64,000 bases of DNA from Alphaproteobacteria bacterium. GTDB lineage: Bacteria; Pseudomonadota; Alphaproteobacteria; Micavibrionales; Micavibrionaceae. The notes below the pieces were generated by a model. That model was not told where the DNA came from, did not search any database, and saw nothing but the letters and a program-made list of their open reading frames with translations. A program made the translations under genes and the position numbers. The DNA lies in contig JAJFGQ010000079.1 of the NCBI GenBank assembly GCA_021776075.1, forward strand, positions 1 to 64,000, read 5' to 3'. Positions 55,232-61,360 of the stretch are shown in pieces. Every line of letters starts with the position of its first letter. The first letter of the stretch is position 1.

Positions 55232-55969
55232 TTAAAATGATAACAAACGGCCGTTTTTAAGCTCCAGAACGCGGTCCATTTGATCGGCAAGGTCCATGTT
55301 ATGGGTGGCAATCAAAGCGCCAATTCCAGCCGATCGTACCAATTCGATCAAAATTTCAAACACATCGGCGGCTGTCTCCGGGTCAAGATTTCCGGTCGGT
55401 TCATCAGCCAGAAGCAAACGCGGATTATTGGCCAGCGCGCGGGCAATGGCAACGCGCTGTTGCTCGCCCCCGGACAGGCGGGCCGGCCTGTGAGTTAAGC
55501 GGTGCGATAAACCCAGAGCCATCAGCAATTTCTCGGCTTTTTGCCGGGCTTCCTTTTTCTTTTTTCCCGCGATCATTTGCGGTAAAATGACGTTTTCAAG
55601 AGCCGAAAACTCCGGTTGCAGATAATGAAACTGATAAATAAACCCTATACGGTCCCGGCGCATTATCGTCCGTTCTGCTTCCGTCATGTTCGCTGTATTT
55701 TTGCCAGCAATAACGATGCGTCCGCCAGTCGGTTGATCCAGTAAGCCGATCATTTGGAGAAGGGTTGATTTCCCGGCTCCGCTCGGCCCCACCAGAGCGA
55801 CCATTTCACCCTTATCGAGCGAAAGGCTCAAATTTTGTAGTATCGTAAGGCTTTGCGCGCCCTGTTTGAATGTTTTCTCCAGACCGTCAACCCTGAGCAG
55901 TTTTTTGGTACGGATCGGTCTGGGTTTCTTTTGTTCCAGATTGACAACTTTTTCAGAAGGCTCATTCAT
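55232..55969 (-). CDS. lolD: Lipoprotein-releasing ABC transporter ATPase LolD
   Basis: LolD powers release of outer-membrane lipoproteins from the inner membrane. The 245-residue ATPase has Walker A GPSGAGKST, the LSGGEQQRVAIARAL signature, and Walker B LLLADEPTGNLD. The start at 55969 (MNEPSEKV) overlaps the end of lolC/E by eight bases; longer in-frame starts lie inside that gene and are rejected. A basic stretch (KKPRPIRTKK) precedes the ATPase core. Confidence 0.95.
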   Translation of the reverse strand: MNEPSEKVVNLEQKKPRPIRTKKLLRVDGLEKTFKQGAQSLTILQNLSLSLDKGEMVALVGPSGAGKSTLLQMIGLLDQPTGGRIVIAGKNTANMTEAERTIMRRDRIGFIYQFHYLQPEFSALENVILPQMIAGKKKKEARQKAEKLLMALGLSHRLTHRPARLSGGEQQRVAIARALANNPRLLLADEPTGNLDPETAADVFEILIELVRSAGIGALIATHNMDLADQMDRVLELKNGRLLSF

Positions 55970-57203
55970 AACGCAGTGCCTCCACGGGGTCGAGACGCGC
56001 AGCCCGCCATGCCGGGTACAGGGTCGCCAAAATAGACAAGCCAAAAGCCATAAGCACAACGGTGATGACTTCATCCCAGTTTACGACAGCCGGAAGTTGG
56101 GACAAGAAATAGATTTCGGCAGCAAACAACTCAACACCGGTTAAACCCTCCAGCCATTGACGGATCGTTTCTATATTGGTCGCAAAAGAAATTCCCAAAG
56201 CGGCACCGACAAAAGTTCCCATCAAACCTATGCTCGCGCCGGCCAGCATAAATATTTTCAACATATTTTTACGGGTCGCCCCCATCGTGCGCATAATCGC
56301 GATATCATGCGCTTTATCTTTCACCAGCATAATCATGCTGGAAATGATATTGAAGGCCGCCACAAGGATAATGAGCGTTAGAATAAGGAACATAACATTG
56401 CGTTCCACCTGCAATGCATTCAGGAAGCTGCTGTTTGTATCCCGCCAATCATAGACACTGAACTGCTCTTCCGTTACCAGTTCGATACCTTTACGAACAT
56501 GATCAACCTGCATAGGGCTTTCTGCCATCACCTCCAATGCCGTTACAGCGCCCGAAAGCTGGAAAAAATTCTGTGCGGTGGGCAAGGGCATAAAGACGAA
56601 GCCGTTATTATATTCATACATTCCGACATCAAAGATCAGTCCTACTTCATAGCGGCGCGAACGCGGAATCGTACCAAACGGGCTGGCCTTTCCTTTAGGC
56701 GCAATCAGGGTAACGCTATCCCCCGGCAGCAAATGGAGACGCTCTGCCATTTTGGTGCCGATAGCCAGTTTGGTTCCGGTGAAGTTCGTTTGTTCTCCTT
56801 CTATGATAGCCTGAGATAAAATAGGTTTACGGGCAAAGTCCGACTGGCTCAGTCCCCGGACAAGAACACCGCTCGACCGTCCCTCTACAGAAAGCAAGGC
56901 CTGCCCCTCAATCAAAGGGATAACAGAGGTCACGCCATCCACATCCAGCAATTTGAGGGACATTACTTTATAATCAACCATGGGACCATTTTGGCTGTAA
57001 ACACTGACGTGGCCGTTCAGCCCGAGAATGCGCGTAACAAGTTCCTCCCGGAACCCGTTCATAACAGACATGACAATAATCAGCGTTGCCACGCCCAGCA
57101 TGATGCCAAGAAAGGAAAATGTTGCAATTACGGATACGAAACCTTCCGCTTTGCGTGCCCGTAAATACCGCCAGGCAACCAGTCGTTCAAAAGGTGAAAA
57201 CAT
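55962..57203 (-). CDS. lolC: Lipoprotein-releasing ABC transporter membrane subunit LolC/LolE
   Basis: The 413-residue permease has the LolC/E layout: a first membrane helix (about 22-45, VIATFSFLGIMLGVATLIIV), a large periplasmic domain (about 60-265), and three membrane helices at the C-terminus, with the typical IMRTMGATRKNMLKIFMLAG coupling segment. Only one such gene is present, as in alphaproteobacteria where a single LolF-like protein serves both roles. The start at 57203 (MFSPFERLVAWRYLRA) is the family start; no clear Shine-Dalgarno is seen. Confidence 0.93.
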   Translation of the reverse strand: MFSPFERLVAWRYLRARKAEGFVSVIATFSFLGIMLGVATLIIVMSVMNGFREELVTRILGLNGHVSVYSQNGPMVDYKVMSLKLLDVDGVTSVIPLIEGQALLSVEGRSSGVLVRGLSQSDFARKPILSQAIIEGEQTNFTGTKLAIGTKMAERLHLLPGDSVTLIAPKGKASPFGTIPRSRRYEVGLIFDVGMYEYNNGFVFMPLPTAQNFFQLSGAVTALEVMAESPMQVDHVRKGIELVTEEQFSVYDWRDTNSSFLNALQVERNVMFLILTLIILVAAFNIISSMIMLVKDKAHDIAIMRTMGATRKNMLKIFMLAGASIGLMGTFVGAALGISFATNIETIRQWLEGLTGVELFAAEIYFLSQLPAVVNWDEVITVVLMAFGLSILATLYPAWRAARLDPVEALRYE

Positions 57204-57261
57204 AACAGAACAAGGAGTACTAAAAAAAACAGGGCGGAACAATCAATATCCGCTGAAGGGG

Positions 57262-57421: not shown

Positions 57422-58894
57422 CTAGTACGATTTTCCAACGATCACTTTCTGACCTTCATCGGCAAAAGGTATGCAGCGCGGTGTCAGGGCAAAATCTTTC
57501 TTAATTTGTTCAAATTGCGAATCTTCTAGCAGCTGCGTGTCAATTCTAACAAACCCTAGGCTGTTAGCGGCATAAAAATCCTTCATTTCATCCAGAGATT
57601 TAATATCAAAAATATGAGAGTCAAGAAAGGTCTGCGCGCGCGCCAGCAAATTATCCTGCACCTGATCGAGCAAGCCTGCCACTGTATTCACAAAATCATC
57701 AACGCTACAGGTTGTTTTAGAGTCCCGGCCCAGATCACGGCGGACGTGAGTCAGGCTGTTTTCATCCATTTCACGCTGCCCTATTTCAACGCGAACAGGA
57801 ATACCCTTTTTGATTGCACCCCACATTTTGTTCGGCGTGCGTTCGTCGCTTGTATCCAGATGAACCCGAATCCCCTGCTCTTTCAACCGGCTCGCCAGTT
57901 TTTCGCAATAGGCCATGACTGCCGTCGTGCTCTCATCACGCACAACCGGGATAATTGCCACATGATAGGGTGCAACACGCGGCGGCATAATCATTCCGTC
58001 ATCGTCGGCATGAGTCATAATCAGAGAGCCAATAAGACGTGTTGAGATACCCCACGATGTTGTGTAGGCATGATGTTCCTGACCATCACGGCCTTGAAAA
58101 TCTATACCGCAGGATTTAGAAAAATTCTGCCCCATAAAATGCGATGTTCCGGATTGAAGGGCTTTTCCATCTTGCATCATAGCCTCAAATGTATAAGTGG
58201 CTACGGCCCCGGGGAAACGCTCATCTGCTGTTTTTTCACCGGGAATTGTTGGAATGGCAAGATCGTTTTTAGCAAAATCAACGTAGGTTCTTAGCATCTT
58301 CATCGAGTCTTCGCGTGCTTCATCTTCTGTTTCAAAAGCATTGTGGCCTTCTTGCCATAAAAACTCAGATGTGCGCAAAAACATACGGGTTCTCATCTCC
58401 CACCGCATCACATTGCACCACTGATTGAGTTTCATCGGCAAATCCCGGTAAGACTGAACCCAGCGCGACATAGCATCCCCGATAATCATTTCCGATGTGG
58501 GGCGAATAACAAAAGGTTCATCAAGTTTTCCTGCGGGAATCAAATCACCATCCGGACCTTCTTCCAGCCGATGATGGGTTACAACAGCACATTCTTTGGC
58601 AAAACCTTCGACATGTTCAGCCTCACGCGTCATAAAGCTCAGGGGAATCAATAATGGAAAATAGGCATTTTGAACGCCCATATCTTTGATCATGTCGTCA
58701 AAAATACGCTGCATGTTTTCCCAAATGGCATAGCCATAGGGCTTGATAATCATACAGCCCCGCACAGGCGAATTTTCTGCCAGATCCGCAGCCTTAATGA
58801 CTTGCTGATACCACTCCGGAAAGTCTTCCTCCCGCGTTGGTGTAATCGCTGTCTTTGGTTTTTTGCCGCTCGCTTTTTGGGCTTGTGCTGTCAT
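57422..58894 (-). CDS. proS: Prolyl-tRNA synthetase, archaeal/eukaryotic-class (type 3)
   Basis: ProRS charges tRNA-Pro. At 490 residues, with TREEDFPEWYQQVIKAADLA and SPVRGCMIIKPYGYAIWENM at the front, YFPLLIP, an RPTSEM motif 2-type segment, LQSGTSHFMGQNFSK, and a terminal tyrosine (VIVGKSY), it is the ProS type 3 class of archaea, eukaryotes and scattered bacteria. It lacks the bacterial N-terminal start (usually LxTLKExPxEAxxxSHxLMLRAG) and the INS editing insert. The start at 58894 (MTAQAQ) lies four bases after the preceding stop. Its position before lolC/E is exactly where alphaproteobacteria keep their bacterial-class proS. Confidence 0.95.
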   Translation of the reverse strand: MTAQAQKASGKKPKTAITPTREEDFPEWYQQVIKAADLAENSPVRGCMIIKPYGYAIWENMQRIFDDMIKDMGVQNAYFPLLIPLSFMTREAEHVEGFAKECAVVTHHRLEEGPDGDLIPAGKLDEPFVIRPTSEMIIGDAMSRWVQSYRDLPMKLNQWCNVMRWEMRTRMFLRTSEFLWQEGHNAFETEDEAREDSMKMLRTYVDFAKNDLAIPTIPGEKTADERFPGAVATYTFEAMMQDGKALQSGTSHFMGQNFSKSCGIDFQGRDGQEHHAYTTSWGISTRLIGSLIMTHADDDGMIMPPRVAPYHVAIIPVVRDESTTAVMAYCEKLASRLKEQGIRVHLDTSDERTPNKMWGAIKKGIPVRVEIGQREMDENSLTHVRRDLGRDSKTTCSVDDFVNTVAGLLDQVQDNLLARAQTFLDSHIFDIKSLDEMKDFYAANSLGFVRIDTQLLEDSQFEQIKKDFALTPRCIPFADEGQKVIVGKSY

Positions 58895-58898
58895 CAGA

Positions 58899-59405
58899 TT
58901 AGTACCCTTCACCCCAGATGATTGTTTCCTTTGGCTCTTTTTTTGCATCTTCCAGTTTTTTTTGCTCCGGCGCCTTACCTGCTGCCGGTTCCGTTGTCCT
59001 TGCTATTTCTGTGGCCGCTTCCCGCTGAACCGGCAGTCCCGTACAGACGCTATAGGTTTCATCGGTTAAGTCCTGACCATTATAAACGACTTTGCCGTTG
59101 GTATAAATATCAATTATCCCCACGGGCGCATCAAGCTCCGCACCGGCAGGTAAAGGCTGGTTAAGTTGCTGCGCCAGATCAATCGTAACGGGCAATGTGA
59201 TCTTGTCCAGAATCGGCGCGGCTATTGTTGCGCCCAGATCAGCCGGAACAACAGGATTGCCGTGAACGTCCACACCGGGCTGATAGGCAACAGATTGTGC
59301 TGCCTTATGCGTAAACCATAACTTACAAAAAGCAGCTTGATTTTGCGCATAGGCTGGAATAGAAAAAACAATCAATAACAAACAGATACAAAGAAATTTT
59401 ATCAT
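58899..59405 (-). CDS. Hypothetical exported protein, 168 residues
   Basis: An N-terminal signal peptide (about 1-20, hydrophobic from FLCICLLLIVFSI, cleavage likely after AYA) makes this a periplasmic or secreted protein. The mature part has two cysteines (Cys27 and one in YSVCTGLP) that could form a disulfide, strands such as APVGIIDIYTNGKVVYNGQD, and a Lys/Glu-rich C-terminal tail. I do not recognise a named family. The start shares ATGA with the DUF1467 gene, and proS starts four bases after the stop, so it lies in the same transcript. Confidence 0.65.
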   Translation of the reverse strand: MIKFLCICLLLIVFSIPAYAQNQAAFCKLWFTHKAAQSVAYQPGVDVHGNPVVPADLGATIAAPILDKITLPVTIDLAQQLNQPLPAGAELDAPVGIIDIYTNGKVVYNGQDLTDETYSVCTGLPVQREAATEIARTTEPAAGKAPEQKKLEDAKKEPKETIIWGEGY

Positions 59406-59671
59406 TTTACATTACCCTCTTCCATCATGGCTATCGCTATGGCCCTAAAGTCGATAATTTTTATTTCTATGAGTATATATACAAGCAGAAGAAGAATGGC
59501 AGATATACAGCTTGTGACAAGGAATTTTAGTTTCAGGTTAGGATGAACCGGTGCACTTGTGGCATGTCCCTGTTCCGGCTCTTCTGGCATCTTATTGCCC
59601 CACGGCAAAACAGTAAAAAGTGTTAACCACCAAAGCAAAAGATACGTAACAATAGCCGTAAACCAAGTCAT
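59402..59671 (-). CDS. DUF1467 family membrane protein
   Basis: This 89-residue protein has two membrane helices (about 4-24 and 49-70) and the family motif WLTLFTVLPWGNKMPEEPEQ followed by GHATSAPVHPNLKLK. DUF1467 proteins occur almost only in alphaproteobacteria, typically between the RNase J and proS genes, exactly as here; their function is unknown. It ends inside the next start (ATGA). Confidence 0.85.
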   Translation of the reverse strand: MTWFTAIVTYLLLWWLTLFTVLPWGNKMPEEPEQGHATSAPVHPNLKLKFLVTSCISAILLLLVYILIEIKIIDFRAIAIAMMEEGNVK

Positions 59672-59680
59672 AGCAGTATC

Positions 59681-61360
59681 CTATACTCGCATCACATGAA
59701 CTGTTGTTTTGGGTTTTATACCCAGCAAAGCATACATAAAGCGCCGGACGCCAATTCGTATTTCTTCCTGTATCATGTGATCATTAGAAAGATCGCCGCG
59801 TTCTATATCAGCCAGAATGTCCTCTATCTCATTCAGGCAATTCTTCTCTATTCTCTCTTCGCCCGGGTTATCAGGATCAAGAAGTCCTATGATACTTATC
59901 TGCGGATCACTGAGAAGGTCGCCCCGGTCATCCAGAGCCAATGTAATGTGAATAACGCCTGTAAATTGAAGTTTACGCCGCTCTGCTATTGATTTGTGAT
60001 GAGAGGACAAAATGCGCTTCGGATCTACAGCCAGAAGTCCTGTCTCAACATGGTCGATAATCTCCGGCGTATCCGGCCCCAGCCGTATAACAGAACCATT
60101 GCTCGGCACAAGAACATGTTCAATCTGACAGGCGCGGGCAATCACAGCCTGTGCTTCCAGATGTGTGCGCTCCCCGTGAACCGGCACCACGAGCTTTGGC
60201 TTGGTCCATTGATACATATCAGCCACTTCGTCTTTGCAGGGGTGACCAGACACATGAATGCAATGTTCTGTATCGCGCGGTGTTATAATATTTACACCGC
60301 CTGCGCTCAGGTTATTTTTAACGTAGTTAATCTCAACTTCATTGCCGGGGATAGCACGTGAGGAAAAAACAACCGTGTCGCCTTTGTTCAGAGTAATCGA
60401 CGGGTGATCTCCCCGCGCAACTTTAGCTAAAGCAGCCCGTGCCTCCCCCTGTGATCCTGTGAGCATGATAATCTGCTGCTCATTCGGCAAAGTATTAATC
60501 TCTTCTTCTGATAAAAAGCTGGCCACGTCTTCCAGAAAGCCACATTCACGACCCGCGCGGGACATGGTGTGCAGAGAACGGCCAACGACGGCGACACTAC
60601 GCCCGCAAGATTCCGCAGCCTTGGCAATAGAACGCATCCGCCCAATATTCGAGGCAAAAAGAGTGACGGCAATACGTCCCTTACAAGCCCTGAAAACAGA
60701 TTCCAGTCCCTTTTCAACATCCTTTTCCGAACCGGCGCGCCCTATTACTTCCGAGTTTGTTGAGTCGCCGATATAGGCCATGACTCCTTTTTTACCGGCC
60801 TCCTGCAAAGTTTTGAAATCGGTGGGGGCCCCAATAACAGGGGTTGGATCAAGATTCCAGTCGCCGCTATGCACAACACGACCCGCCGGTGTTTCGAGGA
60901 TTAAAGAACAATTGTCGGGAATAGAATGGGCCATATGAACGAACTGTGCTTTGAACGGCGCCAGATCAATTACGTCGCCTGCTTTAACGATATTGATTTC
61001 TGCCTTCTTGCAATCAGGTGCTTCTTCAAACTTGCGGCGCATGACAGCCGCCGTAAAGGCCGTACAGTAAATCGGGCAACGCAAGCGCGGCCACAAATGA
61101 GGCACCGCGCCGATGTGATCTTCATGCGCATGCGTTACAATCAGGCCGACCAGATCATCCCGCCGCTCTTCTAAAAAAGACGGATCGGGTAGGAATATAT
61201 CAATGCCGGGAAAATAAGCCCCCGCAAAGCCAATGCCGCAATCAATGGCCAGCCATTTGCCGTCATAGGCGTAGGTGTTGAAATTAACGCCAAACTGTTC
61301 ACTACCACCCAGAGGGATAAAGTGAAGCTGCTTTGGGTCCAAGTTTAATTCTTCTGTCAT
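59681..61360 (-). CDS. rnj: Ribonuclease J
   Basis: RNase J is a metallo-beta-lactamase/beta-CASP ribonuclease with 5'-to-3' exonuclease and endonuclease activity in RNA maturation. The 559 residues show the zinc motif HAHEDHIGA (near 76-84), the beta-CASP motif region SQGEARAALAKVARGDHPSI, HVSGHPCKDEVADMY, and a conserved C-terminal domain. It follows coaX after 39 bases and precedes DUF1467, the usual alphaproteobacterial order. Confidence 0.95.
   Translation of the reverse strand: MTEELNLDPKQLHFIPLGGSEQFGVNFNTYAYDGKWLAIDCGIGFAGAYFPGIDIFLPDPSFLEERRDDLVGLIVTHAHEDHIGAVPHLWPRLRCPIYCTAFTAAVMRRKFEEAPDCKKAEINIVKAGDVIDLAPFKAQFVHMAHSIPDNCSLILETPAGRVVHSGDWNLDPTPVIGAPTDFKTLQEAGKKGVMAYIGDSTNSEVIGRAGSEKDVEKGLESVFRACKGRIAVTLFASNIGRMRSIAKAAESCGRSVAVVGRSLHTMSRAGRECGFLEDVASFLSEEEINTLPNEQQIIMLTGSQGEARAALAKVARGDHPSITLNKGDTVVFSSRAIPGNEVEINYVKNNLSAGGVNIITPRDTEHCIHVSGHPCKDEVADMYQWTKPKLVVPVHGERTHLEAQAVIARACQIEHVLVPSNGSVIRLGPDTPEIIDHVETGLLAVDPKRILSSHHKSIAERRKLQFTGVIHITLALDDRGDLLSDPQISIIGLLDPDNPGEERIEKNCLNEIEDILADIERGDLSNDHMIQEEIRIGVRRFMYALLGIKPKTTVHVMRV

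Follow-up and report, generated by a model that had tools for sequence, protein, structure and literature searches.

How does a prolyl-tRNA synthetase (ProRS) of the archaeal/eukaryotic class come to be encoded at the ordinary proS site of an alphaproteobacterium? The question is raised by a 64,000-nucleotide stretch of DNA from a member of the Micavibrionaceae (order Micavibrionales; assembly GCA_021776075.1, contig JAJFGQ010000079.1, positions 1 to 64,000), which we refer to as the window. A sequence-only reading of this DNA had suggested that an essential gene was replaced in place by a transferred homologue. We instead favor, with a probability of roughly 75%, an account in which two ancient ProRS forms have repeatedly been exchanged in place at one site within the Micavibrionaceae.

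A type 3 ProRS at the canonical proS site

The proS open reading frame spans positions 57,422 to 58,948 on the reverse strand and would encode 508 amino acids from its first in-frame ATG, at 58,948. A second ATG, at 58,894, just clears the upstream frame that ends at 58,899. This second ATG is the likely start, giving a gene at 57,422 to 58,894 and a protein of 490 amino acids. Family models assign the protein to type 3: it scores 472.4 bits on the type 3 equivalog model TIGR00408, passing the cut-off of 437, and only 117 bits on NF008979, the alphaproteobacterial type 2 model (cut-off, 550). Its best PDB match is the Thermus thermophilus ProRS (E = 1e-132), to which it aligns at residues 34 to 500 without a large insertion; that is, there is no INS editing insertion.

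The motif-2 loop of the window ProRS reads RWEMRTRMFLRT. Of the bacterial type 3 sequences close to it in the tree, almost all carry either MRTR or MRPR there. Type 2 enzymes have RPR in the motif-2 loop, and published work describes an RPR motif at this place in P-type ProRS from bacteria (PMC12152171). A C-terminal tyrosine is present in the window protein and in all 40 of the 40 type 3 sequences counted. The enzyme therefore resembles the type 3 (E-type) ProRS of T. thermophilus (PDB 1h4q/1hc7) in class, C-terminal tyrosine, lack of INS, and MRTR loop. Unlike the T. thermophilus gene, the window gene sits at the alphaproteobacterial type 2 site. Compared with alphaproteobacterial type 2 ProRS (NF008979; PDB 2i4l), it has the same site and the same predicted tRNA-Pro substrate, but belongs to a different ProRS class.

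A search of the window genome (2.29 Mb in 87 contigs, 93% complete) for a second proS, a check that the sequence-only reading had called for, found none. The sole other match is weak (E = 2.4e-6) and falls in a 662-amino acid frame of the length of a ThrRS. From its sequence, the window proS is predicted to encode the functional prolyl-tRNA synthetase of its genome and to prolylate tRNA-Pro.

The gene lies among its usual alphaproteobacterial neighbors, in the order RNase J, DUF1467, exported protein, proS, lolC, lolD, and dnaE. All of those detailed here are on the reverse strand. Directly upstream, as the left flank, is a fast-evolving exported protein without a Pfam match (58,899 to 59,405), whose position is conserved in Micavibrionales and in many alphaproteobacterial type 2 loci. 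It is preceded by the DUF1467 membrane protein (59,402 to 59,671; PF07330) and by ribonuclease J (rnj; 59,681 to 61,360; PF22505, PF17770), which served as our upstream flank marker. Directly downstream, as the right flank of the exchange site, is a lolC/lolE-type FtsX permease (55,962 to 57,242; PF02687, PF12704), followed by a lolD ABC ATPase frame (55,232 to 56,074; identified by open reading frame and tblastn synteny). Family models and neighbors together thus confirm that an archaeal/eukaryotic-class ProRS occupies the canonical alphaproteobacterial proS site.

Across the class Alphaproteobacteria, lolC comes after type 2 proS in 29/29 readable type 2 loci, but it comes after type 3 proS in only 4/28 loci from outside Micavibrionales. 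Within Micavibrionales, proS is co-oriented with and directly upstream of lolC in all 35 loci with lolC detected (30 type 3 and 5 type 2); lolC was not seen in the fetched stretch of three further type 3 loci (G019, G026, and G049). The five type 2 genera of Micavibrionaceae have their proS in the same spot, between the exported protein and lolC-lolD. In Micavibrionales, type 3 took the exact place of type 2, while elsewhere in the class it mostly lies at other sites.

Distribution of the two ProRS types

Type 2 is the norm in our class-wide sample of 289 genomes, where it was found in 231 (E up to 1e-80); type 3 was found in 40 (E up to 1e-60). The type 3 genomes, ~14% of the sample, belong to many families and mostly carry the gene away from the lolC site. 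Some alphaproteobacterial families, such as f41 and f67, include both type 2 and type 3 genomes.

The proportions are reversed in Micavibrionales. Type 3 exceeds the cut-off in 45 of the 58 genomes, and five near-threshold or fragmented copies (G007, G036, G039, G045, and G055) bring the count, by our reading, to 50/58. A canonical type 2 enzyme occurs in five genomes (G003, G017, G022, G025, and G029), all of them Micavibrionaceae, and neither type was detected in three fragmented genomes. All seven sampled families share type 3, and those outside Micavibrionaceae are all type 3.

Two genomes of the order, G051 and G054, have an additional, short bacterial-type ProRS that lies away from the proS site, which in both holds type 3. 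The copy in G051 (L372, 7288 to 8562; 424 amino acids) is beside a TerC/Alx-type gene, and a like copy is present in G054 (L028). These proteins are nearest to the INS-bearing type 1 models, yet are too short for INS.

Phylogenetic placement of the window ProRS

Named relatives of the window ProRS come from Micavibrio sp. and related alphaproteobacterial metagenome-assembled genomes (MAGs), with up to 73% identity. Across the families of Micavibrionales, relatives at the same site are 57 to 73% identical. A tree of 112 type 3 sequences places the window copy in a clade of 55 (support, 97) that comprises Micavibrionales and a few strays. This clade adjoins one of 25 other alphaproteobacterial type 3 sequences (support for the join, 89); Chlamydiota, Kiritimatiellota, Verrucomicrobiota, and Planctomycetota fall outside both.

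These placements bear on the simplest explanation of the locus, a recent in-place replacement of type 2 in the window lineage by an archaeal, eukaryotic, or distant bacterial type 3. Such an import is suggested by the fact that few genomes of the class have type 3 (40/289), yet it occupies the type 2 site here. However, the window ProRS nests in an order-wide clade whose members are found at the same site, and the nearest fetched sequences from outside the Alphaproteobacteria are not archaeal or eukaryotic: they come from the PVC group and other bacteria (up to 57% identity). We therefore consider this explanation very improbable. A recent archaeal or eukaryotic donor is rejected, as bacteria account for the fetched sequences that branch next to the order clade, whether as its sisters or just beyond it. 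Because the window copy nests in a type 3 clade that spans the order, recent import into the window genome appears to be excluded on these sequence comparisons.

The suggestion of an in-place replacement thus survives in part. Synteny gives good support for a change from type 2 to type 3 at this site, but, with type 3 order-wide, the change did not happen in the window genome itself. The phylogeny that had been proposed as a check shows a broad, vertically inherited type 3 clade at the level of Micavibrionales, although not for the class. The sequence-only reading had itself named a clade of this kind, for Alphaproteobacteria, as the result that would speak against a recent replacement.

Evidence for repeated switching within Micavibrionaceae

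We find that the site switched type several times (three to four switches) within Micavibrionaceae. On the rpoB tree, the five type 2 genera are interspersed with type 3 genera at three or more positions, with four type changes, and the approximately unbiased (AU) test rejects the five as a single clade (P = 0.0016). This group was defined by enzyme type and not picked from the trees. The flanking genes give the same picture: four type changes on the lolC tree and three on the rnj tree, both of which follow the backbone and not proS type. ProS type is therefore discordant with rpoB and with both flanks. The backbone here consists of rpoB and these two linked flank genes, and most of the genomes, if not quite all, are probably MAGs.

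The type 3 copies are themselves discordant. The rpoB, lolC, and rnj trees all place G008 and G034 with the type 2 genera G025 and G029, and the type 3 copies of G008 and G034 are not sisters (P = 0.0003). The rpoB data also reject three groups found in the type 3 tree, namely {G034, G007, G005, G043} (P = 7e-5), {G002, G030, G009, G013, G021} (P = 0.001), and {G008, G018} (P = 1e-4). On the other hand, {G018, G030, G002} as a single type 3 clade is not rejected (P = 0.154). Apart from the five type 2 genomes, the groups tested were picked after viewing the trees, so that their P values are somewhat optimistic. Resolution is weak at several nodes of the type 3 tree, and {G008, G018} has support of only 83/53. 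For the window copy itself there is no proven exchange (P = 0.30 with its plausible kin held together).

Could both forms instead descend from an ancestral tandem pair of type 2 and type 3 at this site, from which lineages lost one or the other? The two forms do share the site, and each is old in Micavibrionaceae. However, each genome holds one form: canonical type 2 and type 3 occur together in 0/58 Micavibrionales genomes, and none of the 289 class genomes is in both lists among the matches listed. Furthermore, loss alone cannot explain why sister genera have type 3 copies from different type 3 sublineages. We regard a tandem ancestor as improbable, and repeated exchange as the better account.

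In such an exchange, either of the two anciently diverged forms could sit between the exported-protein gene and lolC, and incoming DNA from a relative would recombine through the conserved flanking genes, replacing the resident form in one step. Recombination through the flanks is probably the means. No recombination breakpoint was seen at the proS site, where the age of the events has made tract ends unreadable. The flanks follow the backbone; thus, the exchanged tracts are short or their ends have been erased.

Within the family, most switches seem to have gone from type 2 to type 3, so that type 3 would usually be the incoming form. The type 2 proteins of the five genera form one clade (100/97) with the order ((G003,G017),(G022,(G029,G025))), which resembles the backbone, as expected of a retained gene, and no close outside relative of this clade is present in our sample. 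In both mixed clades, moreover, the discordant copies are type 3. The opposite polarity is a serious, if less favored, possibility: type 3 might have been fixed in the ancestor of the order by a single in-place replacement, and type 2 re-imported once into Micavibrionaceae, where it then spread among genera. The type 2 genera would then be the exception, through reverse replacement, and the switching would still be in place. This would fit with all other sampled families being type 3, and parsimony on type alone (four changes) gives no direction. The absence of a close outside donor from the sample, the backbone-like order of the type 2 clade, and the type 3 identity of the discordant copies count against it.

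More speculatively, Micavibrionaceae might maintain both ProRS classes over long periods at the one site, with free exchange between them. ProS type would then be set by within-family recombination and not by descent, perhaps under fluctuating selection (e.g., from class-specific ProRS inhibitors).

tRNA-Pro identity and editing

The sequence-only reading had held that an in-place replacement requires compatible tRNA-Pro identity elements. We find that tRNA-Pro (UGG) has C1, G72, A73, and CCA in 29/29 genomes read (3 type 2, 25 type 3, and G012, which has no assigned type). Two tRNA-Pro (GGG) matches in the window genome, identical to each other, also have C1-G72/A73 ends. An apparent 312-nucleotide insertion in the tRNA-Pro (UGG) gene of the type 2 genome G003 consists of Ns in the assembly and was dismissed as an artifact.

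The G72/A73 identity is thus confirmed, but no special adaptation to it is required, since such tRNAs are already the substrates of type 3 ProRS known from bacteria: the E-type enzymes of T. thermophilus and Bacillus thuringiensis are specific for P-type (G72/A73) tRNA-Pro (PMC12152171). The same reading is predicted for the window enzyme. Since C1-G72/A73 is found with either enzyme and the type 3 motif-2 loop resembles that of Thermus, no tRNA change would be needed, and a switch could proceed without cost at the tRNA level.

Free-standing PF04073 editing proteins were detected in 48/58 Micavibrionales genomes. All five type 2 genera have one, as does the window genome, whose protein is closest to ProXp-ala (E = 5e-37). 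A ProXp-ala type protein would thereby accompany either ProRS form. Judged from these sequences, neither tRNA identity nor the editing of Ala-tRNA-Pro need block a proS swap, and the type 2 and type 3 enzymes may be truly interchangeable.

Relation to known synthetase homeoalleles

Homeoalleles of aminoacyl-tRNA synthetases are known for bacterial TyrRS and for archaeal ThrRS and SerRS (PMC3191353). The proS pattern matches theirs. It likewise involves two anciently diverged forms of an essential synthetase, usually one per genome and here presumably with the same function, and a distribution in conflict with the organismal tree (AU test and three to four changes on rpoB, lolC, and rnj, as above). 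Both TyrRS forms occur in the same syntenic context, which was read as exchange via flank recombination (PMC3191353), and both ProRS forms share the conserved context seen in the 35 loci. Our case differs from the published ones in that the synthetase is ProRS and the setting is a single alphaproteobacterial family, for which we traced exchange from genus to genus and tested both flanks. ProRS is named only in the methods of that study, and we found no paper on Micavibrio ProRS, or on ProRS as a homeoallele case, in the open-licence literature.

A switch between forms as unlike as types 2 and 3 cannot be mistaken, and it takes place at a fixed site, which makes for a clean natural experiment. 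Micavibrionaceae thus offer a test case for the exchange of an essential gene among relatives without a visible duplicate stage or a tRNA change. It also follows that proS is an unsafe phylogenetic marker in Micavibrionales.

Micavibrionales-like type 3 copies outside the order

Several type 3 copies related to those of Micavibrionales were found under other names. Beijerinckia mobilis (NZ_JQJH01000014.1; L074, 6001 to 7473) has a Micavibrionaceae-like type 3 ProRS that is 66% identical to the window protein and groups with G021 and G023. Its gene lies away from lolC, with a galE/pyruvate-kinase stretch on one side and chorismate synthase on the other. A search of the B. mobilis genome detected no type 2 ProRS. 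In this species, type 2 has been replaced from a Micavibrionaceae-like donor, and the replacement sits at a different site.

A type 3 ProRS like those of Micavibrionales is also present in the record of “Chromatiales bacterium (ex Bugula neritina)” (L082, 2844 to 4292). The same 7.4-Mb assembly has a type 2-like ProRS as well and is possibly mixed. Finally, a MAG labeled “Rickettsia typhi” (L122, 6001 to 7410) and two 0.9-Mb genomes of the class (f75; L161 and L166) have type 3 ProRSs nested among Micavibrionales families, which suggests transfer from, or kinship with, Micavibrionales, or else long-branch attraction.
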